The position numbers and the translations under genes are program-made. 64,000 bases of DNA, taken from the NCBI GenBank assembly GCA_028820635.1, contig JAPPIG010000038.1, forward strand, positions 1 to 64,000, written 5' to 3'. This document shows, one piece after another, positions 526-14,388 of this stretch. Below the pieces are notes generated by a model, which worked only from the letters and a program-made list of their open reading frames with translations, was not told where the DNA came from and made no database searches. The DNA comes from Candidatus Poribacteria bacterium. GTDB taxonomy: Bacteria > Poribacteria > WGA-4E > WGA-3G. The stretch's first letter is position 1, and each line of letters opens with the position of its first letter.

Positions 526-1977
526 TTATTTCAGATCACATCTGAGAAAAGACAGGTGTGCTGCAGTAAAGAACAAGACATTAAAAAGGATTAACAGTGC
601 GGTAGGAAAAAGGACGCTTTGATACGAAATATGCTCTTCAAACCGTGGCACAGCGTCTGGATCTACTGGTTTCTGAGACAAACCCTCTCTCACAAAATAA
701 ATATGAAGGCTATCCGGGTCGCCGCTATCCTCTGATTTTATGAAATTTAAAAACGTTTGTCTATAACGGCGAACCTGTTGGACAAAATTCATATAGCTGG
801 TAATCCCTGAGTTTGCGAACCCTTCCATCGCATATTGAAAACATGCTGTTGGTGAGATTTGGGTGAGTTCGCGGGCGAGTCGGACTTGTCTAAATTGCTG
901 GTCTACATGCTTATCCGCTATATGGGTTTTCGTTTCCCCAATGGATGTAAGATAGGCAGCCCAACGACGTGTAGCCAAGGGATTATCGGGAGAGGGTGCC
1001 TGTTTTAACTTGCTTGATTCCGATGCTTCCAAAGGACGAAATTCATTTTCAATGTTTGCCAATTGGGTTTGTCTACGCGATGAAATTACCTCTATTGATG
1101 GAATCGGATCAAGAGTGCCAACAAAAATACCGAGTAGACTTGGAAAAATAAACGCCAAACATACCCAACTTAATAGAAGCCAGACTAAACTGGTAATAGC
1201 ATTTGATACCCGGCTGGAGAAAAACAGCCCTAAAAAAATAAAGATAGAGATATGCAACGCAAAAAGCCCGACCATTCCCAAAATTCGTAGCCAATCACCC
1301 GAACCAATGGGGATTTTCCCTGAAAGATAAATGATTAGCAGGTTCATCAGGATACCGATTGTGAGTGGGACCATAAGCGTAAAAAACGCACCCAAGTATT
1401 TTGCCAACAAAATCTGTCCCCGAGAGACACGGTTAGACATCATTAGACTCAGTGTGCCTTGAACGCGTTCCCCGGCAATGGCATCAAAGGTGAATAAAAT
1501 AACAAAAAAACTCATGAAAATACCGATAAAGACCCAGTCAATTTTGATGAGTGTGGTTGCGTCACTGCTATGATTTGTAGGTAGATATTCTAATGACCAC
1601 ATCTCTCGCCATCTATATGCTTCCCCCTCGTTTCCGCCTCTGCCGTAGTTTGTGCGGTCTGCTATTGTGATAGAACGCGGTATTGACTCATCAGCCCCAT
1701 CGGCACAAAATTTTAACTGGCTTGGGGGCTTCGGTATTTCTCCGGGACCTATCATTGCCAATTTCCCCAAACCTTCTGAGGCGAATCTCTCAATATGCGC
1801 CAATCTCTGTGTCACTTTACGATTATAATCGTAGATTTCTTCCGTATATCCGGTATTACCGAATCCGTATATGAGCGCGTTCGCCACCATCAGGACAGGC
1901 AGAAGAATTATCATCAAGACGAACCGTAACGTCATGAGATTGTGATATATCTCTTTCTTTACAATGTGCCAAATCAT
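526..1977 (-). CDS. ABC-2 type transporter permease
   Basis: This 483-residue protein is probably the membrane-spanning subunit of an ABC-2 exporter, or of a Gld/Nos-type system. It has an N-terminal membrane segment (about residues 17-38), a long extracytoplasmic loop, then a cluster of membrane segments from about 150 to 290 and a last one near the C-terminus. The segment FTFDAIAGERVQGTLSLMM just after the second membrane helix is the typical ABC-2 signature, also present in the two other permeases here. The start is ATG. It lies 158 bp downstream of a paralogous permease and probably shares its transcript with the sigma-factor fusion gene. No ATPase subunit is encoded in this window, so the substrate and the partner ATPase are unknown. 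Confidence 0.8.
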   Translation of the reverse strand: MIWHIVKKEIYHNLMTLRFVLMIILLPVLMVANALIYGFGNTGYTEEIYDYNRKVTQRLAHIERFASEGLGKLAMIGPGEIPKPPSQLKFCADGADESIPRSITIADRTNYGRGGNEGEAYRWREMWSLEYLPTNHSSDATTLIKIDWVFIGIFMSFFVILFTFDAIAGERVQGTLSLMMSNRVSRGQILLAKYLGAFFTLMVPLTIGILMNLLIIYLSGKIPIGSGDWLRILGMVGLFALHISIFIFLGLFFSSRVSNAITSLVWLLLSWVCLAFIFPSLLGIFVGTLDPIPSIEVISSRRQTQLANIENEFRPLEASESSKLKQAPSPDNPLATRRWAAYLTSIGETKTHIADKHVDQQFRQVRLARELTQISPTACFQYAMEGFANSGITSYMNFVQQVRRYRQTFLNFIKSEDSGDPDSLHIYFVREGLSQKPVDPDAVPRFEEHISYQSVLFPTALLILFNVLFFTAAHLSFLRCDLK

Positions 1978-1982
1978 TTTAA

Positions 1983-2120
1983 TAGTTTTCAGTTATCAGT
2001 TGTCGGTTTTCAGTTAAGATATGTATTGTAACAATCTCTCCACCTTGGAATATTCCAGGGGTGGTGAATTGTTACCAAAAACCTCGTGTGACTGATAACT
2101 GAAAACTGACAATTATTAAC
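1983..2120. repeat. Inverted repeat between two permease genes
   Basis: Arms built from TTTTCAGTTATCAGT-like words flank about 80 bp: one set at 1986-2016 reading forward and one at 2091-2117 reading in reverse. A shorter hairpin sits in the middle, CCACCTTGGAATATTCCAGG near 2040. It could form a hairpin in the intergenic part of the permease transcript. No coding capacity. Confidence 0.55.
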
Positions 2121-2135
2121 CGATAATCCTCCTTT

Positions 2136-3635
2136 TCAACTCATATCATACCGAAGGAACGATAGGTATGCACCAATAAACAGAATGACATTCCACGCTA
2201 ACAGAATAAAAACGTCGCCCAATGAACGAAAAAGACTCTCAGAAACGGAGTTATATCGGTGGTGAAAAACGGGTAGGTCTATGAATTCTGCCGCCCCCTT
2301 ATCGCTTGAAAACCATGCCCGCTCAGAAAACGCGTTTTTATCAGCAAGATAATCAACAAGCTGACGTTTATAACGCCTCGTCTGATCCATAAAATCGTTG
2401 TAACTTTCCCGGTCTGTACCGGTTATCGTCCCTACGGCAAAGCGGTATGCATCCGCGAAAGAAATTCGGGAAATATCTCTGGCAAGTTGCGCGTTTCTTT
2501 CGCTAATTTCCTCCCTTCGTTTGAGAAGTTCTTCAGCTTTATTAGCATAATCAATACGGAGGGGTTCTTGATAACCTAATACCTCCTGAAATTTGGAGAC
2601 ATTTGCATTGCGAATCGGTTTAATGGTGTAGAACTCTTTAAACCCAAGCTCCCATGGCGAACTCATGTAAATCTGTATTGAGAGTGCCCCCTCCTGAGAA
2701 ATCGCGCTTACTGGGTATTTATATCCCCACGTTTTGAGAATATAGGTATCCCGTTCCGCCTTGAAGTTTTCCCATATCTTTTCAACTTGTTGCCGTGCTT
2801 CTTTTTCGGATTGAAGTTTATGCGGAGGGAATTTCGCGACTGCAAAGGTTGCTATATTTGAGTGAAGAATCGTCAGAATTCCCCAAATAAACATTGAGAG
2901 GATCAATGTAGTCGCTGCAGCCTTTGTCCATACAGATAAGAGCAATCCTAAAAGGTAACAGACTGACACATATAATAGCGAAACAATGAGTACCATGACG
3001 AGGCGTAGTAAATCACTGCCATTGAAAGTAGTCGTGGGAGAAGCGACCGCGATAACGAGTCCGACAACGAAACTCGTCACTACAATCGGAAACAACGACA
3101 ACATCCCGCCAAGATATTTCCCAAGTACAAGTTTGTCCTTCGGAACCGGATTGGATAACACCAGTTTCAGTGTGCCATCCTCTCGCTCCCCAGAAATCGT
3201 ATTGTAAGCGAACAGTATCGCTAATGCACTGAGCACAATTTTGAAGACAAAAATGACATCAACAGAAAGGAAAATTGAGAGGAAAGGATTGTCCGAACCC
3301 TGTTTCTGCGCTTCTTTCTCCCAAATAGGTGTTGCGAGGTCAATGCTTACCATATCCGCACCAGATTTTTCCATTCCCACGTTAAAGATGCTGAGCGGGT
3401 TCGGTTTTCTGTGTGCTTTAGGATTGATTTGGCTATAGAGGTCCCATGTTCGCGTCTCGTCTTGATGTTCTTGAACGGCAACGTGATACGCAGCCAATCG
3501 TTTTTCATAATCTGCAACCTGAACATAAATGGCAGCAGCAGTCGAAATCAGGCAGACGACAAAACCAATCATGAACCGGGAGGTTAGCACATTTGAGATA
3601 AATTCTCGCTGGATAATTAGCCAAAGTGTTGTCAT
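2136..3635 (-). CDS. ABC-2 type transporter permease
   Basis: A 499-residue permease paralogous to the genes on both sides of the cassette. It starts MTTLWLIIQREFISNVLTSR, with a membrane helix at about residues 21-40. A loop of about 90 residues follows, then helices around 120-280 and a final helix near 475-495. The ABC-2 motif FAYNTISGEREDGTLKLVL follows the second helix. The large loop between helices 6 and 7 (about 280-470) is charged. The gene lies 163 bp downstream of the sigma/Asp-box fusion gene and upstream of the second permease on the same strand, so the three genes form a cassette. The ATPase partner is not in the window. The ABC-2 fold is well supported; the substrate is unknown. 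Confidence 0.8.
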   Translation of the reverse strand: MTTLWLIIQREFISNVLTSRFMIGFVVCLISTAAAIYVQVADYEKRLAAYHVAVQEHQDETRTWDLYSQINPKAHRKPNPLSIFNVGMEKSGADMVSIDLATPIWEKEAQKQGSDNPFLSIFLSVDVIFVFKIVLSALAILFAYNTISGEREDGTLKLVLSNPVPKDKLVLGKYLGGMLSLFPIVVTSFVVGLVIAVASPTTTFNGSDLLRLVMVLIVSLLYVSVCYLLGLLLSVWTKAAATTLILSMFIWGILTILHSNIATFAVAKFPPHKLQSEKEARQQVEKIWENFKAERDTYILKTWGYKYPVSAISQEGALSIQIYMSSPWELGFKEFYTIKPIRNANVSKFQEVLGYQEPLRIDYANKAEELLKRREEISERNAQLARDISRISFADAYRFAVGTITGTDRESYNDFMDQTRRYKRQLVDYLADKNAFSERAWFSSDKGAAEFIDLPVFHHRYNSVSESLFRSLGDVFILLAWNVILFIGAYLSFLRYDMS

Positions 3636-3641
3636 AGACCT

Positions 3642-3799
3642 ATGCCATTTCTAATTGACAAATTGCCATAATAAACTGTAGGTCGGGTAGAGCGTCAGCG
3701 AAACCCGACATGGAAACCTTCATCTAATCAAGCGTGTCGGGTTTCGTAAACTCTACCCGACCTACGAAATAATGTTATACAATCATTTAGAAGTGGTAT
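3642..3799. mobile_element. Family B miniature inverted-repeat element, copy 1
   Basis: Degenerate terminal repeats (ATGCCATTTCTA at 3642-3653; TAGAAGTGGTAT at 3788-3799, 10 of 12 complementary) enclose two nested perfect stems. GTAGGTCGGGTAGAG at 3678-3692 pairs with 3751-3765, and CGAAACCCGACA at 3699-3710 pairs with 3735-3746. The same architecture recurs at 30791-30961. The right end overlaps the last base of the stop codon of the sigma-fusion gene, so the element may act as its transcription terminator. No transposase is present, so any mobility would depend on an enzyme elsewhere. Confidence 0.75.
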
Positions 3800-6531
3800 T
3801 ATACTGAACGTTTAAAACGAAGTACACCGCGGTGTTCCGTCCCAACGTAAAAGGTGTCTTTATCAACAACAAGAGACGTTACAACGCCTGAAATTTCCGG
3901 CGCAACTTGTTCCCAAGTGTTTGTATCACTTTGTAGGTGATAGATGCCTTCATCGTTAGCCCCATAAACGGAATCTCCCGCTGTAACTAACGACTTGATG
4001 ATAACAGACTCCTCCGCCTCACTGGTCAGTAGACTCCAGATAACACCATCTTTTGAATTGAAAACGCCTTTATCTGTCGCGACGTAAACCGTTGAACCCG
4101 CAAAGGCTATCTCCTTGAAGTGTTCAACAGACAGCGGAAGACTCGATGTAATGTCGTTCCAACTGTCGCCGTCATCAAGCGATTGCAAAAGATGCCCATC
4201 CCGTTTACCGACATAGACGGTTCCATCCGACACAGCGATTTTAAAGCCTCTCCATAACGTCTCACGTGAGAGTTCACCGGTCTCTTCTACGCCAGTGTCG
4301 CGCCATTCCGAATCCCCAGGTCCCCATCGGAACAGTTTATAGTTATATTCCATATAAAACGTATCATCGCTGACGGCAAAACTCCCCCACAATCCTTCCC
4401 ATATTAATTCATATACCAGTGGAGGGTCTGTTTGTATCTCTATCAACCTTTCAAAGAAACGGTCTGCTCCAAAGTCAGCGGTTTTTGATAACTCATCCAA
4501 TAGAGAACCAGACACACCAGAAAAACCAATTCGGAGTTCCGGACCTGACCGTCGTTTGTCTCTAAAGATAAAATGCTTCCCTTTTAGTATCCTGTGCATC
4601 AATCCAGTCGAACTGAAAGAGGGTGGAACCTCTTTAACAGGACTGAGCGCATTGCCATCATAAGACAATTGAAAAATAGCGGTTTCATAATGTTTTTGAA
4701 TTCCTTTTGCATAGAGAACGCCATTGGTTCTTTCTATCTGGACAATTTCCGGTTGTTGCTTTTGGTGTAGGCGTTCTTTGGGGTTCACTTCCAAGCTGAC
4801 AGCATCCCACGATGTCCCGCCATCGTTCGATTTGACAAACTGTTTACCCACGTTGGCGTAAAGTGCTGCAGACCCGTTTGGTGCCTGATCTGCCACGAAA
4901 CTGACTAAATTATCAACACGACTTCCCAGTCCAGTATGAAAGCGATGCCACGTTTTACCAGCATCGGTTGAACGATGAATCCCACTGCTGCCACCGGTAT
5001 AAAACGTGCTTCCATCCAAAACTACAGCACAGCGCACACTGAACTGCATAGGAGAAATACCTGAAGATTCCATAGATGTCCAAGTGTCACCACAATCAAC
5101 TGAGCGTGCTACCATGCCGTCATCATTCCCGATTGCCAAGAGCGTCTCTTCTGCAGCCAGCAGCGTAAGACTTGGCCCCATACTCATTAGGCCCCAGGTA
5201 TCCATAGGTGTTATGTCGTTCCATGAATCACCACCATCAATTGATCTAAAAATCCACCACGAACGTATCTCATCCTTCCACAGTCGCTTCCAAATATCTT
5301 CTGATGCTCCATAGAACCTTAAAATATTCACTGATGCCATGACATAGATTTGGTCCTCATATATTGCTAAAGAGCCAACACGCACGACATCATCCACTGG
5401 CAACTGTAAGTGTTTCCAAGTATCTGTCTCAAGACGGTAGAGTCCCAGATCGGTTCTCACAAATAGGGTGCCTTGACTCATTTGTAACGAATGAATTCCT
5501 GAGTGTTTGGGTAAGCGATTGTCTAAGCCATTACTTATATCCTTCCAAGAATTCCCAGCGTCATCGGACCGATAAATACCACCACACAGACAAAGATAAA
5601 AAGCATCTTCCGTGATCATTAATTCTCTAACATACCACTTTGGACAAGCACTGACCATGTGCCAAGTTTCACCACCGTTAGTGGAAGCAAACAACTCATT
5701 GGATGGAATAATATAGAGCATGCCGTCTCGTTCCGCTATAGGTATATTGCCACCAGTGTCTTGACGTAGGAAGGTGTCATTGACCAGCTGCCATGTGTCC
5801 TCTCCCGCGGGTAATTTGTAAATACTTTCATCTCCTATAACGGTATAGAGCGTATTTTCGGAAGTCATTGACAAAGTACCAACCTCTCCCAATATACCCG
5901 GTTCATTTACCTGCGTCCATTTCATAATGTCATCCATGAGGTCATCAGAGTTCTGAAAATTGCCTAATGTCTCGCGAACCATAGCCTCCTCCTTCTTCAA
6001 CCGCTTTCGCGCGCGATGGAGCTGGCTTTTAACCGTGTTCGGCGATACCTCCAGAAATTCACCAATCTCTTCACATGTCATTTCACTCAGGTAGTGAAGC
6101 ACCACGGTTGTCCGCTCACGCGAGGGTAATTTTTGAAGCAGATACTCAACGACTTCGCGTTGCTTTTCTGTCCCTAACTTTTCAGTCTGTTCCGCCAGAT
6201 ATTGGGCATAGAACAAGGCTTCTATTTCGGCTTCACTCATTGCTTCTAAGGATTGCATCGGGATCTTCTTCTCCGTAATCCATGTGAGGAAGCGACGGGT
6301 GGCAATCATATAAAGCCATCCCGAAAACCTGTTTGGGTCTCTCAGCGTACCAAGTTTTTCATAAGCCATGAGAAAAGTATCCTGCGTAATCTCTTCGGCG
6401 ATGTGGTAGTCCCTTACCCTCCGCCATACGAACGCGTGTATCCGCTTTTCGTATTTTTTCACGAGAGCAGTGAAGGCACTCTCATCGCCTGCTAAGATTT
6501 GCTTAACCCACTTAGCATCATCGTTTTTCAT
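3799..6531 (-). CDS. ECF-type sigma factor fused to an Asp-box propeller
   Basis: The first about 190 of 910 residues are an ECF sigma-70 factor. Region 2 includes AEEITQDTFLMAYEKL and RFSGWLYMIATRRFL. Region 4 includes LPSRERTTVVLHYL, then CEEIGEFLEVSPNTVKSQLH and RARKRLKKEE. About 700 residues of Asp-box repeats follow, with motifs such as STNGGETW, SDDAGNSW, SIDGGDSW, SVDCGDTW, STDAGKTW and SLDDGDSW, as in sortilin/sialidase/Ycf48-type propellers. I see no membrane helix between the two parts. The start at 6531 is chosen because it aligns with the paralogue (MKNDDAKW against MKNNDVAL) and has GGGAG seven bases upstream; the frame stays open 36 bases further. Permeases follow directly. The propeller may sense or scaffold something that gates the sigma factor, but this is inference. 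Confidence 0.85.
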   Translation of the reverse strand: MKNDDAKWVKQILAGDESAFTALVKKYEKRIHAFVWRRVRDYHIAEEITQDTFLMAYEKLGTLRDPNRFSGWLYMIATRRFLTWITEKKIPMQSLEAMSEAEIEALFYAQYLAEQTEKLGTEKQREVVEYLLQKLPSRERTTVVLHYLSEMTCEEIGEFLEVSPNTVKSQLHRARKRLKKEEAMVRETLGNFQNSDDLMDDIMKWTQVNEPGILGEVGTLSMTSENTLYTVIGDESIYKLPAGEDTWQLVNDTFLRQDTGGNIPIAERDGMLYIIPSNELFASTNGGETWHMVSACPKWYVRELMITEDAFYLCLCGGIYRSDDAGNSWKDISNGLDNRLPKHSGIHSLQMSQGTLFVRTDLGLYRLETDTWKHLQLPVDDVVRVGSLAIYEDQIYVMASVNILRFYGASEDIWKRLWKDEIRSWWIFRSIDGGDSWNDITPMDTWGLMSMGPSLTLLAAEETLLAIGNDDGMVARSVDCGDTWTSMESSGISPMQFSVRCAVVLDGSTFYTGGSSGIHRSTDAGKTWHRFHTGLGSRVDNLVSFVADQAPNGSAALYANVGKQFVKSNDGGTSWDAVSLEVNPKERLHQKQQPEIVQIERTNGVLYAKGIQKHYETAIFQLSYDGNALSPVKEVPPSFSSTGLMHRILKGKHFIFRDKRRSGPELRIGFSGVSGSLLDELSKTADFGADRFFERLIEIQTDPPLVYELIWEGLWGSFAVSDDTFYMEYNYKLFRWGPGDSEWRDTGVEETGELSRETLWRGFKIAVSDGTVYVGKRDGHLLQSLDDGDSWNDITSSLPLSVEHFKEIAFAGSTVYVATDKGVFNSKDGVIWSLLTSEAEESVIIKSLVTAGDSVYGANDEGIYHLQSDTNTWEQVAPEISGVVTSLVVDKDTFYVGTEHRGVLRFKRSV

Positions 6532-6581
6532 GTGTATCTCCCAATTAACAACATTGCCTTGTGACACGTGACATATATTAT

Positions 6582-6597
6582 AGGAAGGAAGGTTGCA
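6582..6597 (-). promoter_or_regulatory. Motif shared by both sigma-fusion genes, site 1
   Basis: On the minus strand this reads TGCAACCTTCCTTCCT, ending about 50 bases before the start codon. Nearly the same string, TGCAACCATTTCCTCCT, lies at a similar distance upstream of the paralogous gene. An AAC-containing word is typical of ECF sigma -35 elements, so an autoregulated promoter is possible. A TATAAT-like word follows immediately. Confidence 0.45.
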
Positions 6598-7209
6598 AAT
6601 TCGTAATTTTGTGTCTTAAATGTTTTGAAAGTTCCTTCAGTTCGATAATAGAAATCAAAGTAGTGGTCTGCCTACTCTAAAATTGCGGGTATAGGTCGCG
6701 ATTCGGAGATCGAAATCAACGGTATGAATGCCATTTAGGCGTTCACCGCCTACAGAAGATGGTCCGTCTTTGTAGGAGGGAACTCCGATTCCCGACTATT
6801 ACTGATACCTATAATTTTAGAATGGATACTCCAGTAGATGTAGGGAATCAACGCTGAATGCGCGTATTGCCTTGCAGTAAGAGTCGGTGGGATTGAGCAG
6901 TAAAAGACAGAAGTTCATCTCATCTATATGGAGGATGCAGCGTTTAGATGCCGCATTAGCGTAGATATAGCAAAACCCAACAATCCAAAGTTTTATCGGT
7001 GTGAGAATACGTTGGATTTCACTCGTATCTAAGTGAGTTCAGTAAAAGAAATAGGTATTTCAGAAGGAGACTCCCTTGCATAATGAGATAAGCAAACCCA
7101 TGCAAAAAGGAGGTTATCCATAGACATTATAGCACTTTTTTGTGATATTGGCGATTTTTTATCAGCATTTGAAAGGTGGTTAATGAAAACAAACTGATGA
7201 CGTTATTAG
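6598..7209. other. Gene-less stretch with one family A repeat
   Basis: Bases 6672-6840 hold a family A repeat copy. Its outer ends are CTCTAAAATTGCGGGTATAG and, in reverse, ACCTATAATTTTAGA. Inside are a GAATGCC/GGCGTTC hairpin at 6726-6744 and the CGCGATTCGGAGATCG and GGAACTCCGATTCCCGAC arms. The rest, to 7209, has no frame with family resemblance. Two GGAG-rich words near 7065 and 7107 are not followed by plausible genes. Confidence 0.6.
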
Positions 7210-7445
7210 ACATACGCTTGCTGAAAAAAGCGTATGTTGATTGAGAGTGTGATTGATCAACTCAAGAACATCTGTCAGGTAGCACACACTCGTCATTGCA
7301 GTGTCGTAACTTGCCAACCGTTGTTCGTAATCCTTAATAAGCACAACGGTTTAGCGACAACAAGTAACAACATAATGAAAACAAATGCAGCGAATCGGAA
7401 CGTCATTAGGTTGCCGAGGAGTTCTTGGCGGATAAGTGTAATCAT
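7210..7445 (-). pseudogene. Truncated, frameshifted ABC-2 permease remnant
   Basis: Read on the minus strand from an ATG at 7445, the frame gives MITLIRQELLGNLMTFRFAA followed by a hydrophobic stretch ending in LLLVVAKPLC. This matches the N-termini of the intact permeases. After a shift into another frame near 7340 the text continues IKDYEQRLASYDTAMTS, which matches ADYEKRLAAYHVAV of the 499-residue permease. The similarity then fades, so only about the first 60-80 codons remain. A perfect 10 bp inverted repeat (7210-7219 with 7228-7237) lies near the break point. The remnant sits just downstream of the intact permease of cassette copy 2, where copy 1 has its second permease. Confidence 0.75.
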
Positions 7446-7500
7446 AAAATTCCCAGTATGAATTAACTAATATGTAATACCATAACCCTGACATTTCCTT

Positions 7501-8919
7501 TTAAATATCCGACCTAAAGAATTTTAGAAACGCTACGGTTGTTAGCACCACAGCAAAAAGACCGAGCAGCAGTATATCCATTAAAGATTGACGAAATGTC
7601 TCACCTAAGGTTAAAGTTTTCAAATCTGGCGGTTGCGCAATTTTGATATTTTTCTTTGGATCCGCCGATCTCGAACTAACATGATCTACGACTTTACTAA
7701 ACCACTCTTTATCAAGGACATCATAGTAGCGTTCTCCAGCTTGAAAGTAGTCATTCCTTTTTGTTTTTCCGGTCTGAGTTAAGTTCGTAGAGAGATAAAT
7801 GAGAGAGGATGTTGGTGAGATTCGAGAAAGTGTCTCAGCTACCCCTTCTTGTCTTGCTTGCTCACGCTTATAACGTCGGTCTATCTCGTCCATTCTGTCA
7901 TTGAATTTCTGTCGAAACTCCTCATGAATCGGTCTCAACTGTTTATCAACCTCTCTATTCAATGCAAACTGTTCTTCAAAAGGAACTCGTCGAGAGCGAC
8001 CTTTCCATACCTCTACATATATCTTATTTCTCTCTTCTTTTATTCCTACATTGATATCCTCGCGAACGGCTGTCTTTTCCAGATAGACACTCTGCAAAGT
8101 TTGTGTCGGTGCGATGAATTTAGCACCGAGAAACCCAACGCGTGGTGTAATCAGCACAGCAAATACCCATACGGTAAACGCAACAATGAGTGCTGTTTTG
8201 GAATTGTCTAAATAGGTGGAAATCACTGTCCCTATAGCGAAAAAGACTGCGATATAGATTGACGAGACAAGTGTCAAACTAAGGACTCGTGGAAAAAATT
8301 CTGGTTCACCTAACGGGAAGCCTTGAGCAACTAACAGCAGCAAACCGAACAGAAATGACACTAAGAATGGAACAACAAATACGATGTATCCACCAATCAA
8401 TTTACTCCACAAGAAGGTATCACGTGGCAGTGAATTTGCCAATGTTATACGGAGAGTACCTGCCTCCCTTTCCCCGGCAACAGCATCAAAAGTAAACAGG
8501 AGCGCGAGCAAACTGAAAACAGTGCCAACAAGGAAAAGAAAATCAAGATGCCCTAACAGATAAGAAAGCGAAACAGAAACAAGGCCAGAAGGACCTTGGA
8601 CAATGCCATTGCGCGTCATACCGAGATAACTCGGAAGTGCGTTTCCTAATCCGTTAGCGAACACGCTCAATGGTGTTGGTTTCAGAAAAAGTTTTGCAAC
8701 TTCCAACTCCGGATCCAGTCCCATGTTCGTGTTAACTTCTTTTTCTTCGGCGTTGGCAAGTTTGACAGCTTCTTGATAGTCAACAAGATTTTGACGGTAA
8801 TGCTGATAATTCATAGAAAGAGTGAGCGGAACAAGTAAAAGACACATCAGGAGCAGCACAATAAATCTAACGCTGAGGATATGATGCATCATCTCTTTTT
8901 GAATCAATGTCAATAACAT
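7501..8919 (-). CDS. ABC-2 type transporter permease
   Basis: A 472-residue permease starting MLLTLIQKEMMHHILSVRF, with a helix at about residues 17-35. An extracytoplasmic loop, helices around 125-270, a long charged loop and a C-terminal helix follow. The ABC-2 motif FTFDAVAGEREAGTLRITL after the second helix matches the two permeases of the other cassette copy. It lies about 400 bp downstream of the second sigma/Asp-box fusion gene and just upstream of a permease remnant, mirroring the order sigma fusion, permease, permease seen at 0.5-6.5 kb. Export of an unknown substrate is likely, but no ATPase gene is in view. The start is an ATG. Confidence 0.8.
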   Translation of the reverse strand: MLLTLIQKEMMHHILSVRFIVLLLMCLLLVPLTLSMNYQHYRQNLVDYQEAVKLANAEEKEVNTNMGLDPELEVAKLFLKPTPLSVFANGLGNALPSYLGMTRNGIVQGPSGLVSVSLSYLLGHLDFLFLVGTVFSLLALLFTFDAVAGEREAGTLRITLANSLPRDTFLWSKLIGGYIVFVVPFLVSFLFGLLLLVAQGFPLGEPEFFPRVLSLTLVSSIYIAVFFAIGTVISTYLDNSKTALIVAFTVWVFAVLITPRVGFLGAKFIAPTQTLQSVYLEKTAVREDINVGIKEERNKIYVEVWKGRSRRVPFEEQFALNREVDKQLRPIHEEFRQKFNDRMDEIDRRYKREQARQEGVAETLSRISPTSSLIYLSTNLTQTGKTKRNDYFQAGERYYDVLDKEWFSKVVDHVSSRSADPKKNIKIAQPPDLKTLTLGETFRQSLMDILLLGLFAVVLTTVAFLKFFRSDI

Positions 8920-9071
8920 TTGAATTCCCCTTATTTTTTCTGAATTAGCGGGAGTTTGATAACAGTATGGTAGAAGATAATCTTAACGTAAGTTCCGTGT
9001 AAAGATATGAAGTGATTAATGCTTTGAATTTTACTTTCATAGTCACGGTAGGAGCGGTTAGGAAACCGCTC

Positions 9072-9313
9072 CATAGGTGTCAATTTAGTGATACATGTTC
9101 TCGTAGGGAATCAACACCTCATGCGCCAAATCAACGGTATGAATGCCATTTGGCATTCCCCGTATGGCATTCGGCGGGGTTGAACCGCAGGTGAAACCCA
9201 ACGTTTCCAGCATGTAAAATCGTTTGAAGTTGGGTTTCGTGCCTCAACCCAACCTACAAGAAGGATAGAAACCACCGAAACATGATTGGAAAATCCTTAA
9301 ATTGACACCTATG
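9072..9313. mobile_element. Miniature element with perfect 16 bp terminal inverted repeats
   Basis: CATAGGTGTCAATTTA at 9072-9087 is perfectly complementary to TAAATTGACACCTATG at 9298-9313. Inside lie a GAATGCC/GGCATTC hairpin (9141-9158) of the family A type and a GTTGGGTTTC.../...GAAACCCAAC stem (near 9196-9233) like that of family B. It therefore looks like a composite or nested non-coding element of 242 bp. A GGAGCGGTT/AACCGCTCC hairpin adjoins its left end. The right end lies 10 bp from the stop codon of the sigma-fusion gene. Confidence 0.65.
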
Positions 9314-9322
9314 AGGTAGATA

Positions 9323-12130
9323 CTATGACTCAGAACGTTCAAGACAAAGCACACCGCGATGTTCTGTGCCAACGTAAAAGGTGTCTTCATCAACAACCAG
9401 AGAAGTTATAGCATCCGGAATTTCAGGCACAATTTGTTCCCAAGTCCGTGTTTTCTTTACTAATTGATAGATTCCGTCATCATTTGCGCCATAAACAGCG
9501 TCCTCTGCTGTTGCTAACGACTTAATGATTACGGTTTCCCTCGTTTTATCAGTGATTACATCCCAAACAACACCATCTATTGAATTAAAAACCCCTTTGT
9601 CGGTAGCGACATGAACTGTTGAGTCGGCAAAGACAATTTGATTGAAGTGTTCAACCGACTGCGGCAGGTCTGATGTAATGTCGTTCCAATTATCACCACC
9701 ATCAAGCGATTGAAAGAGTTGCCCATCTCGCTTACCAACGTATACCGTTTCACCTGATGTAGCAAGTTTAAAACCATGCGACATATTTTCAGGTGTGAGT
9801 TCACAAGTTTCTTGGACACCTGTATCGGACCATCTTGCGTCACCAGGTTTCCATCGGAAGAGTTTATAGTTGTACTCCATGTAGTACGTTTCTCCACTCA
9901 CCGCGAAGTTGCCGAATAAACCTTTCAACGTCAATTTGTAAGCCAGTTGATGATCGCCTTCTACTTGACCTAACAGTTTTAAAAAACATTCTGCACCAAA
10001 TTTTGGATTCTCACGTATTATCTCAGTTGATAAAGGTTCAACATCAGCATCAGGATCTGTAGAGCGGGAAAAGGAAATTTGTACCTCTTGTCCCGGTAGC
10101 CGATTAGAATCGAAGGGAAATGTTGCTTTCCCAAACACGGTCCACATGAGCCTTCCTGAATCTCGCGAAGGAGGTGTCGTTCCCTCTTCAAAAATATAAC
10201 CCTCTACAGCAACCAAGCAATTTTTGTCCGTATCTAAACGATAATAAGCCGTTTCACAATTACGTCGAATTGCTTTTGCATACAGAACACCGTTGGCTTC
10301 GGAAATCTGAACAATTCGCGGTGTATATTCCTTCTGTTTTAATTTTGCATTGAATTTTGGCACTTCACTTATAATCTTTGGCAGTTCAATGCCAACAGCA
10401 GCCCACGAACTACCTCCATCAGTTGATTTGACTACACTCCCCGAAACTGTCGCATAGAGTGCATTCGACATTTTTGAATCTGGACTTGCCTTGAAACTGA
10501 TCAAGTTTTCCACACGGCACGCAAACCTTGTATTAAATCGGTGCCAGGTTTCACCGCCATCTGTTGAACGATGAATTCCAGCGACTCCGCCAGTATAAAA
10601 CATGTTTTCGTCTAAAGATGCAGCACAGTTGACGCTAAACTGCAAAGGTGTAATACCGGAATGTTCTATAGATTTCCAAGTATTTCCACAATCAATTGAG
10701 CGAGCCACAACACCCTCTTCTCCAGCTATTAGTAAGAGTGTTTTTCCATAAGCAAGCAGCTTAACCGGAGGCAACGTTCCTTTCATTAGATCCCGAGCAT
10801 CCGAAGGTGTTATATCTGTCCAAGAATCGCCACCATCGGTTGATCGGAATACCCACCACGAATCCTTACTGATATCACACAAATTATGGTAATTTTCTAT
10901 AGGCGTACCGTCACCTTCCATAATATTTACCTTTGCTGCAATATAGATATTGTCATCGGACACCGCTAAACAATTCACTATCACAGTGTTGTCCACCGGC
11001 AACTGTAGGCGTTCCCAAGTTTCTGTTTTAGAGCGGTATATTCCCAGATAAGTTCCAGCAAACAGCATGTCTTGACTCACTCGTAATGTGCAAATTTCGC
11101 CGTCCGCTGTCAAACGGTTGTCTAAACCATCGTTCATGTTTGTCCACGATTTTCCAGCGTCATCGGATCGGAAAATACCTTCATTAAGAGTTAAGTAAAA
11201 AGCATCTTCTGTGATCAACAATTCTCTTACATGTCCCTTTGGACAAGGACCGATGGAATCCCAAGTTTTACCCCCATCTGTTGAAGCAAACAACTTATCA
11301 TAAGGAATAATATAGAGCGTTCCGTTGTGTTCAGCAATAGGAATAGTGCCCTCGGTCTCTTGACGTAAAAATTCTTCGTTAACAAGCTGCCAATTGTTTT
11401 CACCCGTGGGTAATTTGTAAATGCTCTCATAACCCATTACAGCATAAAGCGTCCCATCCGATGTCTTAGCTAATGTACCTACTGAAGCAGCAACGCCCGG
11501 TTCATTCATCTGAATCCATTCCATAATATTCTCTGTAAGATTGTCTGGCAGTTCAAAACCACCCAATGTTTCGCGAACCATCAATTCTTCCTCCTTTAAT
11601 CGCTTTCTTGCCCGATGAAGTCTACTCTTAATCGTATTCACTGGCACTTCCAAAAACTCGCTAATCTCTTCACAACGCATATCACCGAGATAGTGAAGGG
11701 TTATCACAGTCTGTTCATTCTCAGGTAATTTGTTGAGAAGGTGTTTTACAACTTCATGCCGTTTTTCATCGGCACTCTCTTCGCGCTGTTTCTCAAGATA
11801 TTGGTCATAGAAAACTCTTTCTAACTCCGCTTCAGGCATTGCCTCAAGAGATTCAACTGGTAGCTGCATTTTTCGAAAACACGCTAAACAACAATTCTTA
11901 ACAATTGCGTATAACCATGCGGCGAAACGACTCGGGTCTCTAAGTGTCCAGAGTTGGTTATAAACCTTAAGAAACGCGTCTTGCGTGATCTCTTCAGCGA
12001 GATGGAAGTCACCTAACTTCCGCCATGCAAACGCGTGTACCTGCTTCTGATATTTATCTACCAAAACAGTGAAAGCGTTTTGGTCACCACTGAGGGTCTG
12101 TTGAATAAGTGCAACATCGTTGTTTTTCAT
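9323..12130 (-). CDS. ECF-type sigma factor fused to an Asp-box propeller (paralogue)
   Basis: A 935-residue paralogue of the gene at 3.8-6.5 kb with the same architecture. Sigma region 2 includes AEEITQDAFLKVYNQLWTL and RFAAWLYAIVKN. Region 4 includes LPENEQTVITLHYLGDM, EEISEFLEVPVNTIKSRLHR and ARKRLKEEEL. A linker ending VRETLGGFELPDNL leads into about 700 residues of Asp-box repeats (STDGGKTW, SDDAGKSW, STDGGDSW, SIDCGNTW, STDGGETW, STDGGSSW, SLDGGDNW). No signal peptide or membrane helix is visible, so the whole protein should be cytoplasmic, whereas most Asp-box propellers are exported or lumenal. ATG with AGGAGG seven bases upstream supports the start. A permease and a permease remnant follow. 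No separate anti-sigma gene is adjacent; the propeller could fill that role, by inference. Confidence 0.85.
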   Translation of the reverse strand: MKNNDVALIQQTLSGDQNAFTVLVDKYQKQVHAFAWRKLGDFHLAEEITQDAFLKVYNQLWTLRDPSRFAAWLYAIVKNCCLACFRKMQLPVESLEAMPEAELERVFYDQYLEKQREESADEKRHEVVKHLLNKLPENEQTVITLHYLGDMRCEEISEFLEVPVNTIKSRLHRARKRLKEEELMVRETLGGFELPDNLTENIMEWIQMNEPGVAASVGTLAKTSDGTLYAVMGYESIYKLPTGENNWQLVNEEFLRQETEGTIPIAEHNGTLYIIPYDKLFASTDGGKTWDSIGPCPKGHVRELLITEDAFYLTLNEGIFRSDDAGKSWTNMNDGLDNRLTADGEICTLRVSQDMLFAGTYLGIYRSKTETWERLQLPVDNTVIVNCLAVSDDNIYIAAKVNIMEGDGTPIENYHNLCDISKDSWWVFRSTDGGDSWTDITPSDARDLMKGTLPPVKLLAYGKTLLLIAGEEGVVARSIDCGNTWKSIEHSGITPLQFSVNCAASLDENMFYTGGVAGIHRSTDGGETWHRFNTRFACRVENLISFKASPDSKMSNALYATVSGSVVKSTDGGSSWAAVGIELPKIISEVPKFNAKLKQKEYTPRIVQISEANGVLYAKAIRRNCETAYYRLDTDKNCLVAVEGYIFEEGTTPPSRDSGRLMWTVFGKATFPFDSNRLPGQEVQISFSRSTDPDADVEPLSTEIIRENPKFGAECFLKLLGQVEGDHQLAYKLTLKGLFGNFAVSGETYYMEYNYKLFRWKPGDARWSDTGVQETCELTPENMSHGFKLATSGETVYVGKRDGQLFQSLDGGDNWNDITSDLPQSVEHFNQIVFADSTVHVATDKGVFNSIDGVVWDVITDKTRETVIIKSLATAEDAVYGANDDGIYQLVKKTRTWEQIVPEIPDAITSLVVDEDTFYVGTEHRGVLCLERSES

Positions 12131-12175
12131 AAGTGCCTCCTAATGGATTTCCCTTATGATATAATGATACATGCA

Positions 12176-12192
12176 AGGAGGAAATGGTTGCA
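12176..12192 (-). promoter_or_regulatory. Motif shared by both sigma-fusion genes, site 2
   Basis: On the minus strand this reads TGCAACCATTTCCTCCT, ending about 45 bases before the start codon; it corresponds to the site at 6582-6597. Here it also forms half of the palindrome TTGCAT-AAA-ATGCAA (12188-12202). It may be an ECF-type promoter element or operator used for autoregulation. Confidence 0.45.
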
Positions 12193-12294
12193 TAAAATGC
12201 AAATTTTTTCAAAAAAGTGGTTAGAATATAGAATTTTCTTTGATTAGAATAAGTAAACAGATAAAGCAGGAAGTGGAATTGTTCAGGAAAATAT

Positions 12295-12933
12295 CTATAC
12301 TAATTCGCACAAAGTGTCATAGATATTTTGTGCTTTTTCAAAATCTTCTGGTGTGTTGACATTGAAAAATGAGTATCCTTCAGGATCATACGTTTTCCAA
12401 ATTTCAGGAGCGAGAGTGAGGACATTTGCACGTTCCTGTAGCGCGTGAACGCGTAAGTCAGATTCATTCAGCATCTGTTCAATAATCGGCAAGCAGCATT
12501 TAGAATACACCGCGCACAATGTTTGGAGGGTAATCTGCGTGTCCTCATTATAAGAGGACGGTTCTTTGTGAGTGTAGGGCATCACAGCATCGTATTCGCC
12601 TAAAACAGAGACAAGATAGGTAAGCAGATTAGACATTAGGAAAGGATTGTCGCAGCCAACACAAATCACTGTTTGGTGTGAAGCATACGTCAAACCAGCG
12701 TGAATACCACCTAATGCTCCCGCATTTGGGATAATATCCTTGTACGTTGTAATACCGAGATGTTTATATTCATCAGGACTGTTTGTGATTAGCAGGAGTT
12801 CATCCGTGATGGATTGCATGCGGCGGATAACATGACCGATGAATGTTCCATTACCGAGTCGTAGCAGTGCCTTATTCTGCCCCATCCGCTTGCTTTTTCC
12901 ACCTGCCAAGATAACGCCTGTCACCATTTGCAT
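12295..12933 (-). CDS. mobA: Molybdenum cofactor guanylyltransferase MobA
   Basis: A 212-residue nucleotidyltransferase that transfers GMP from GTP to molybdopterin, making the guanine dinucleotide cofactor used by DMSO-reductase-family enzymes. The N-terminal signature GVILAGGKSKRMGQNKALL binds the nucleotide. GALGGIHAGL and the CVGCDNPFL segment (about residues 82-110) match the MobA/NTP-transferase fold. Length is normal for the family. M1 or M3 may be the start; neither has a strong ribosome site. The gene stands between the sigma cassette and the sulfatase on the same strand, with no other cofactor gene nearby. A related nucleotidyltransferase is less likely because the LAGGxSxRMGxxKA motif is typical of MobA. 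Confidence 0.85.
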   Translation of the reverse strand: MQMVTGVILAGGKSKRMGQNKALLRLGNGTFIGHVIRRMQSITDELLLITNSPDEYKHLGITTYKDIIPNAGALGGIHAGLTYASHQTVICVGCDNPFLMSNLLTYLVSVLGEYDAVMPYTHKEPSSYNEDTQITLQTLCAVYSKCCLPIIEQMLNESDLRVHALQERANVLTLAPEIWKTYDPEGYSFFNVNTPEDFEKAQNIYDTLCELV

Positions 12934-12943
12934 GTTCTTACAT

Positions 12944-12978
12944 TGTAGGAGGGGTTTTCAACCCCGATTATTATTGTA
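12944..12978. repeat. Short GTAGGAGGGG hairpin repeat
   Basis: Begins with GTAGGA like the family A repeats. It folds as GGGGTT-TTC-AACCCC (12951-12965) and ends near ATTATTATTGTA. It may be a minimal variant of the family A arm and could act as a terminator for the sulfatase or as part of the mobA leader. Confidence 0.45.
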
Positions 12979-13002
12979 AGAGTAAGTCTCAAAAGCTCAA
13001 TC

Positions 13003-14388
13003 TCAATTTTGATTGACAAGTATTGGTCCATAGCGACTATTCATCTGAGAACGTAATTCTTCAACAAGTTCCTTTTCGGACTCAGCGATATTGTGTAATT
13101 CGTCCGGATCCTCATCAAGATTATACAATTCTATGAATCCATTACTACTTTCTATTAGCTTATGTGTATGTGTCCGAATACAAGTGAAGTTTCCCAGTCG
13201 ACTGACCGTTTCTGAACGATGGGTTTCAGTTTCTCCCCGCACTACAGGCCCTATTGATTGTCCGTCAATATTTTCCAAAACCGGTACTCCCACTAAATCG
13301 CAAATAGTAGGATTAATATCAATGAGTTCTACCAACTCGTATGAGACACGATCACCTTCTATTCCCGGTCCTGCAACAATAAGGGGGACGCGCAGCGATG
13401 CCTCATAAGCCAAACTTTTTGTATAAAGCCCATGATCACCGAGCATTTCCCCGTGGTCGCTTGAATAGATAATATAGGTATTTTCAAGCATACCGCGCGC
13501 TTCTAAAGCACCCAACATGTTGCCAATCTGATCGTCAATAAGTTCAGTTGCTGCACAATACTGTTGCCTCGTAATCTTAACTTCTTCGGGACTGAGATTA
13601 ACAGTGCGTTTTTTTACCCATTCTGGTTTGCGTTCCATATTATCTGCAATTGGGGCAGGCATATCTGCATTGCGATACTTGTCGCCATATTCAGTTGGTG
13701 GATCAAATGGGTCGTGCGGTCCTACGAAACTGACGAACAAGTGCCATGGAAAGTCATCAGGGATGTTTTCTATAAATTCAGTTGAACGCCTGCCGATATA
13801 TGAATCCTCAAAATCCTCAGTCGGAAGCACGGAATCGTACGAACCGTTTTTTATCCAACCACCAGAAGAACGCCGGTTCCGGTAATCTTGATGAAATTTT
13901 TCTAACAATCCCTTTTCTTGTAAATAATGTGTATAGGGTCCAATGGGTGTTGGAGAACTGCCAGCATGCATTTTTCCTTCGCATTCTTCGGGATGCGTGA
14001 ATCCCCAATTGTAAGTGCGGGGACGGTCGCCGTAGCGACCATTATATCCATCCGGTTTGGCAAGGTCAAGTTTGCCCACACATCCAACGCGATATCCATG
14101 GTCTCGGAGTTGCTGATAATATGTTGGGATAGAGGTTGGGTAAAAACTACCGTTTCCCAGTGAGCCTAAACGCGAGGGTTGTACTCCAGACGCTAAGCCT
14201 ATTCGGGATGGTGCACAGACCGGGGCATTCACAGTGCAGTATGGAAAATTTACGCCCATTTCTGCTAATCTGCGTAGGTTTGGGGTGTTGAGTGCATCAG
14301 GGGCATTCTCATGCGTTTCCAGATAGTCGTATCTATGCTGATCTGACATGATAAAAAGAATGTTCGGTTTATCGGTTTTTCGGTTCAT
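13003..14388 (-). CDS. Sulfatase (formylglycine-type, arylsulfatase family)
   Basis: A 461-residue type I sulfatase that should hydrolyse a sulfate ester. The metal-binding N-terminus reads NILFIMSDQHRYD. The activation motif CAPSR is at residues 58-62, where Cys58 would be converted to formylglycine. FVGPHDPFDPPTEYG and YSSDHGEMLGDHGLYTKSL are further conserved blocks. No signal peptide is seen, so it may be cytoplasmic or leave by an unknown route. The start is ATG with AGGAG upstream, nine bases after the TPR gene, so the two are probably cotranscribed. The substrate cannot be told from sequence; sulfated glycans of algae or sponges would suit the lineage, by inference. No formylglycine-generating enzyme is encoded in this window. 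Confidence 0.9.
   Translation of the reverse strand: MNRKTDKPNILFIMSDQHRYDYLETHENAPDALNTPNLRRLAEMGVNFPYCTVNAPVCAPSRIGLASGVQPSRLGSLGNGSFYPTSIPTYYQQLRDHGYRVGCVGKLDLAKPDGYNGRYGDRPRTYNWGFTHPEECEGKMHAGSSPTPIGPYTHYLQEKGLLEKFHQDYRNRRSSGGWIKNGSYDSVLPTEDFEDSYIGRRSTEFIENIPDDFPWHLFVSFVGPHDPFDPPTEYGDKYRNADMPAPIADNMERKPEWVKKRTVNLSPEEVKITRQQYCAATELIDDQIGNMLGALEARGMLENTYIIYSSDHGEMLGDHGLYTKSLAYEASLRVPLIVAGPGIEGDRVSYELVELIDINPTICDLVGVPVLENIDGQSIGPVVRGETETHRSETVSRLGNFTCIRTHTHKLIESSNGFIELYNLDEDPDELHNIAESEKELVEELRSQMNSRYGPILVNQN

Follow-up and report, generated by a model that had tools for sequence, protein, structure and literature searches.

Sensor-bearing ECF sigma factors linked to ABC-2 permease genes in Poribacteria, with a candidate shared ATPase encoded in trans

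Why should sigma factors that carry their own sensor domain be encoded directly ahead of transporter permeases that have no ATPase beside them? The question is raised by the first 64,000 nucleotides (base 1-64000; hereafter the window) of contig C51 in a Poribacteria draft genome of 5.97 Mb. The minus-strand order in the list of open reading frames (ORFs) is sulfatase, MobA-like protein, fusion2, PermC, a permease stub, fusion1, PermA and PermB. Fusion1 and fusion2 join a sigma factor to Asp-box beta-propellers, and the Perm genes encode permeases of the ABC-2 family (ABC, ATP-binding cassette). A preliminary description had recognized two minus-strand blocks here, each with a fusion followed by ABC-2 permeases, and both the ORFs and Pfam matches confirmed this arrangement.

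We consider it fairly probable, from sequence comparisons, that these blocks are autoregulated, plug-in export cassettes sharing one ATPase. The sigma domain encoded by the cassette's first gene would recognize a promoter of the extracytoplasmic function (ECF) type, and this promoter would drive a run consisting of the sensor-sigma fusion and then the ABC-2 permease gene or genes. The Asp-box propeller may hold the sigma domain inactive until a ligand or partner is bound. The ATPase-less permeases would be energised by a single ATPase encoded in trans on contig C9, beside NEW3-domain and TolC-like proteins. Since the ATPase gene of the window genus has a promoter of the same family, the family sigma factors would switch on their own permeases together with the common motor. 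All support for this model is comparative, and its conjectural parts are promoter recognition, assembly of the ATPase with the permeases, the sensor mechanism and the direction of export.

Sigma-permease blocks, their promoters and a candidate ATPase in trans

Both fusions matched sigma region 2, region 4 and an Asp-box/sortilin-type propeller in Pfam. They have Sigma70_r2 and r4/r4_2 domains with no other sigma-70 domain and score above the TIGR02937 cut-off, as ECF sigma factors do. All three permeases matched ABC2_membrane_2 (E 1e-24 to 1e-31) and have about 6 transmembrane (TM) helices, placing them among ABC-2 (type V) permeases. The gene pairs had been called paralogous across the blocks. 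This holds for the fusions, which are 57% identical over their full length in sigma and propeller parts alike, whereas the permeases are only loosely related, forming three distinct subfamilies at 23-28% identity. The ratio of nonsynonymous to synonymous substitution rates (dN/dS) was 0.17-0.24 for the fusions and 0.10-0.14 for the permeases, and such purifying selection on both argues that the arrangement is not due to chance.

Permeases stand behind the fusion orthologue in 15 of 18 informative loci, i.e., Poribacteria contigs with readable downstream sequence; the count excludes contigs ending at or just after the fusion, and several of its loci come from the same genomes as the loci cited here by G number. 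The conserved layout is fusion2-[C]-[A'-B']-fusion1-A-B or a subset of it, with short or overlapping gene spacing in several orthologous cassettes. Together with many further sigma-permease operons, this is the conserved adjacency in other genomes to which the preliminary description had looked for support. What it had named as counting against a cassette was in part observed too: permeases follow the fusion at most loci, but fusion orthologues at 60-82% identity also occur without them, and six of the genomes concerned have no member of the permease family at all. At the remaining fusion2-orthologue loci, the fusion is followed by a small unnamed protein, alone or with a MacB permease (MacB_PCD, FtsX). 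The slot between fusion2 and its WD40/CobW flank can thus hold ABC-2 permeases, the small protein with MacB, or nothing, depending on the genome, and one locus (L100) has both kinds of downstream content. The sulfatase and MobA-like neighbours stay beside fusion2 with or without permeases. Judged from gene order, the fusion-permease linkage is real and old, spanning two genera, and is not obligatory.

MacB was considered as a general partner of the fusions and rejected. It has 12 matches in the genome and lies behind the fusion2 orthologue in five relatives, and we keep it as an alternative occupant of the slot. The small unnamed proteins encoded between the fusion2 orthologue and MacB, of about 265 aa and without a Pfam match, form a family present at L071:1970-2776, L068:3248-4045 and L045:14219-14989, and a weak relative adjoins TM-type sigma fusions.

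The upstream regions of family sigma genes share an ECF-type element, with a -35 of ATGCAACC or ATGCACC and a -10 that varies by subclade (CGCGTCA, GTATCA, TGTCAC, ACGAC). A bipartite promoter of the ECF kind (AAC ... CGTC-like) thus lies before the sigma factor's own gene. The pattern was found before 81 of 137 family sigma genes, 5 of 109 PermA genes, none of 152 PermB/C genes and 15 of 820 other genes, and five of these 15 are C9-type ATPase genes. Reading of printed upstream sequences by eye showed the element, slightly varied, ahead of the ATPase in G018 and in those window-genus copies that were examined. A strict form of the pattern has 17 sites genome-wide, the C9 ATPase site among them. 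The window has a single strict site, before fusion2 (0.25 expected), and a looser form also precedes fusion1. No promoter of this family was found before any permease in the window, so the simplest view is that transcription from the fusion promoters also covers the permeases. The promoter evidence supports the earlier suggestion that the sigma factor may control the export system. We also considered whether the -10 element and the specificity loop of sigma2 converge, but the fusion2 and S375 clades share GTATCA and not the loop residues, and we make no claim on it.

No ATPase is encoded in the window block, as the preliminary description had stated. It had proposed to look for one beyond the left edge. 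However, the window starts at contig base 1, and the orthologous continuation in G001 has no ATPase either, so no cognate gene accompanies the permeases. The candidate is instead in trans. On C9, a 244-aa ATPase is followed by the NEW3-domain protein and the TolC-like protein, in a cluster ordered S375-C-A-B-ATPase-NEW3-TolC with a family sigma factor (S375) at its head. This ATPase matches ABCA/NosF, and the permease matches NosY and ABC2_membrane_2/DUF3526. The closest PermC paralogues also sit in this cluster (77% identity). C9-type ATPases are 85-98% identical across most relatives, and many genomes have the A, B and ATPase genes side by side in their core cluster. Among 85 genomes of the phylum, mostly draft metagenome-assembled genomes, 57 have both the ATPase and the permease family, 26 have neither, two have the permease only (both incomplete genomes, 81% and 83% complete) and none has the ATPase only; 83 of 85 therefore agree, in counts that ignore phylogeny. 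There are up to 89 first-look permease candidates per genome versus one or two ATPases. Because the permease loci are dispersed, their co-absence with the ATPase is not the simple loss of one cluster. One ATPase thus co-occurs with many ATPase-less permease sets, from which we infer that the C9 ATPase may energise many of them.

Sensor domains and membrane anchors in the wider sigma family

The window genome contains about 45 full-length or near-full-length family sigma genes. In most members, the sigma domain is followed by a single, strongly hydrophobic helix at about residue 221 and a conserved linker, beyond which comes a domain of the Asp-box, WD40 or another type. When the TM-linker segment was used as query, 38 copies were found in the own genome and as many as 63 in relatives. 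Sister genera and neighbouring families had 1-3, and most families further away had none. According to a phylogenetic tree and the gene order at about 60 additional permease loci, sigma-then-permease operons are spread across about nine sigma subclades: the window's two, M61-peptidase-like, TPR, TPR plus thioredoxin-like, and others. Because the operons recur with subclades bearing unrelated C-terminal domains, comparative gene order indicates that the sigma head is the constant part of the cassettes. The preliminary description had linked the propeller-bearing sigma factor to export, and it is the sigma factor, not the propeller, for which this link stands, since linked sigma factors also bear M61-peptidase-like, TPR and thioredoxin-like C-termini. 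The propellers may nevertheless sense something linked to export. An obligatory link between Asp-box propellers and permeases was rejected, as most Asp-box paralogues are TM-anchored with no permease nearby and permease-linked sigma factors often carry other domains. In the M61-like sensor on C9, no HEXXH motif occurs in the inspected stretch, as expected for a sensor and not an enzyme.

Fusion2 has a hydropathy maximum of 1.22 and hence no TM helix, and fusion1 likewise lacks one. Both have a cysteine content resembling that of cytoplasmic proteins, and the window propellers are probably soluble and cytoplasmic. In the own genome, a TM helix was found in 31 of 44 scored full-length members. 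It was absent from all seven permease-linked fusions and present in 31 of the 37 others (p = 4e-5, stricter definition; p = 7e-6 with the first definition; both uncorrected for kinship). In relatives, the helix was absent from 26 of 32 permease-linked fusions versus 15 of 55 others (p = 2e-6). When 13 phylogenetically matched pairs were compared, TM loss went with permease linkage by 5:0 (p = 0.06), which is only suggestive of a tie between the two under phylogenetic control. Cysteine makes up 1.08% of the propellers in TM-less fusions versus 0.24% in TM-bearing ones (p = 4e-10), and about 1% of the sigma domains in both alike. These contents are consistent with a cytoplasmic propeller in TM-less and a periplasmic propeller in TM-bearing fusions.

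The AlphaFold model of fusion2, of moderate confidence (predicted local distance difference test (pLDDT) score 63), gave Foldseek matches to tandem-propeller GH74 xyloglucanases and to the Bacteroides sensor BT4673, with low global TM-scores (template modelling scores), so that the similarity is local only. From this model, a glycan or glycan-like ligand would be our guess.

Some family members have WD40 instead of Asp-box propellers (L054, L064 and L058; own genome C129, C49 and C122). A TM-less WD40 member at C49:188 kb has no permease nearby and heads a row of three TM-less family members. At L153 and L141, sigma factors fused to TPR and AhpC/thioredoxin-like domains are encoded immediately before A-B pairs and may represent a redox-sensing variant of the cassette. 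Two regions of the own genome, C49:320-340 kb and C125:63-83 kb, match the same run of five sigma fusions with identical scores, so the assembly contains a duplicated segment.

Alternative explanations and comparison with known systems

Several observations weigh against the model of autoregulated cassettes with one shared ATPase. Many relatives retain fusion2 although permeases are missing, and G019 and G020 have many permeases and few family sigma genes, so each part can live alone. In G021, G019 and the outgroups, the 230 bp next to the ATPase lack the promoter motif, and the reversed control of the strict pattern still has 6 sites versus 17. The -10 elements of fusion2 (GTATCA), fusion1 (TGTCAC) and the ATPase (CGCGTC) also differ, so the reader of the ATPase promoter need not be the window's two fusions. 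In addition, each genome encodes about 70 other ABC ATPase candidates. With so many to choose from, the permeases might use one or several ordinary ABC ATPases, the single-copy C9 ATPase being merely co-inherited with one cluster. We think this quite unlikely, given that dispersed permease loci are absent jointly with the C9-type ATPase and that A, B and ATPase genes adjoin in so many core clusters.

A different explanation is that the locus is a mobile or hotspot neighbourhood, where sigma and permease genes multiply and often land together with no functional coupling. The variable contents of the fusion2-WD40/CobW slot, the remnant resembling an insertion sequence (IS) and the palindromic repeats at the joints, and the heavy amplification of both families all fit this explanation. 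So does the shuffling of sigma heads and sensor tails in G018, where the heads of two neighbouring fusions have been exchanged or replaced and one fusion1-type propeller stands behind a TM head (L073). However, order and strand are fixed with the sigma gene first, gaps are short, permease dN/dS is near 0.1 and the arrangement is conserved across two genera. About nine sigma subclades also show it, and a promoter of the same type precedes the trans ATPase, which leaves the hotspot explanation unlikely in our judgement. Even less probable is that the fusion regulates unrelated genes and that the permeases are read-through passengers of an autoregulated operon. Both the fusion2 promoter and its protein are kept in permease-less genomes, and no second promoter of the family precedes the window permeases, as such passengers would have it; recurrence with so many sigma subclades is not expected of passengers, and the family promoter precedes the permeases' likely ATPase. 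The model of cassettes with a shared ATPase can also be taken further, to one ATPase-NEW3-TolC motor that serves tens of permease pairs. Each pair would have come under a separate sensor-sigma factor of a lineage-specific family, and the permease-linked sigma factors would have lost their anchor because the permease is the membrane partner that passes the signal to the soluble sensor. We offer this fuller version as an improbable one.

ECF sigma factors with C-terminal extensions are known, including ECF57 (WD40-like repeats), ECF52 SCO4117 (a TM helix and a periplasmic carbohydrate-binding domain) and IutY (PMC8999054). Like these, the Poribacteria proteins are ECF sigma factors fused C-terminally to a regulatory domain, some via a TM helix, as a built-in substitute for a separate anti-sigma factor; no zinc-finger anti-sigma domain was found among the Pfam scan matches of the family. 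They differ in their Asp-box double propellers and M61-, TPR- and thioredoxin-type sensors, in having tens of paralogues in each genome whose promoters share a related -35, and in the operon link to ABC-2 permeases. The window fusions have neither the WD40 extension of ECF57, matching Asp-box/sortilin instead (WD40 occurs in some paralogues), nor the TM helix of the membrane-tethered ECF52/53 type. The NosY-like permease and ABCA/NosF-like ATPase resemble the ABC-2/type V transporters NosFY, GldAFG and ABCA. Unlike in those systems, A-B pairs (plus C) occur here without a neighbouring ATPase, usually with one ATPase per genome for many pairs, and with NEW3 and TolC-like partners. The multitask ATPases MsmX and MsiK serve type I importers (PMC7658222). 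They are alike in that one ATPase would serve many ATPase-less permease sets, whereas the permeases here are of the ABC-2 (exporter) type and the ATPase and cassettes have a common promoter family. The predicted tandem propellers match the structures of GH74 xyloglucanases and of the Bacteroides hybrid two-component sensor BT4673, but the output here is a sigma factor and not a histidine kinase.

Sensor-extended ECF sigma factors and shared importer ATPases are thus known. What is new is that they are combined, on such a scale, and that a promoter family links the cassettes to a shared exporter ATPase. Searches of open-access text on Poribacteria brought up no paper about ECF sigma factors of this phylum. 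If the model is true, a shared ABC-2 exporter motor would be co-regulated with many permease cassettes through one promoter family, and there would have been a lineage-specific expansion of membrane-tethered sigma factors whose outside parts are often beta-propellers, two features absent from the sources consulted. Poribacteria, which are uncultured sponge symbionts, would then possess a layer of signalling comparable in operation to the hybrid two-component sensors of Bacteroides. As the split into TM-bearing and TM-less fusions is matched by cysteine content, the placement of the sensors can be tested directly.

Features of the window and further observations

Table 1 Features of the two sigma-permease blocks and their surroundings
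Feature	Position	Strand	Remarks
fusion2, ECF sigma factor (res 1-190) with tandem Asp-box beta-propellers	9323-12130	-	935 aa, no TM helix; Pfam, hydropathy, Foldseek
fusion2 ECF-type promoter, ATGCAACCATTTCCTCCTTGCATGTATCA	12165-12193	-	block also visible 5' of fusion2 orthologues
PermC, ABC-2 permease (ABC2_membrane_2)	7501-8919	-	472 aa; Pfam
A-type permease (A') stub, frameshifted N-terminus	~7270-7445 (limits approximate)	-	remnant of A'-B' pair
IS transposase-like remnant, LIESVIDQLKNICQ...	~7220-7330	+	overlaps or abuts the stub; identified by eye
fusion1, ECF sigma factor with Asp-box propellers	3799-6531	-	910 aa, no TM helix
fusion1 ECF-type promoter, TGCAACCTTCCTTCCTATAATATATGTCAC	6568-6597	-	
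PermA, ABC-2 permease	2136-3635	-	499 aa; distant NosY relative
PermB, ABC-2 permease	526-1977	-	483 aa; PermA partner
Imperfect palindrome, REP/MITE-like (repetitive extragenic palindrome/miniature inverted-repeat transposable element), CGGGTT...AACCCG type	3678-3765		in fusion1-PermA gap; by eye
MobA-like nucleoside triphosphate (NTP) transferase and sulfatase	12295-14388	-	conserved neighbours upstream of fusion2

The proper start of fusion1 is the ATG at 6531; the alternative GTG at 6567 (922 aa) abuts the promoter. Palindromic repeats lengthen the gene gaps in the window. The gap between fusion2 and PermC is only 26 bp in G023, and fusion1 and PermA are much closer together in G021 and G023 than in the window.

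The permease gene described earlier as decayed, at 7210-7445, is indeed decayed, but only the A-type stub is left of it, with the IS-like remnant alongside. The stub shares a 39-bp match with intact A genes on C9, and relatives keep an intact A'-B' pair at its position. A genome search found no second copy of the IS-like remnant in the own genome.

PermA-PermB type genes are adjacent in most permease loci. The AlphaFold structure of PermA was too poor (pLDDT 47) and was discarded. Tandem arrays of four to five A-B pairs with no sigma gene nearby occur at L154 and L160 (G021 C60 and G023 C309), with 6-7 bp between most successive pairs. Secreted-looking proteins with a Laminin_G_3 (concanavalin-like) domain recur in or just after sigma-permease cassettes (L009:8766-9674, L070:15901-16695, L073:4945-5772), and could be exported substrates of the cassettes.

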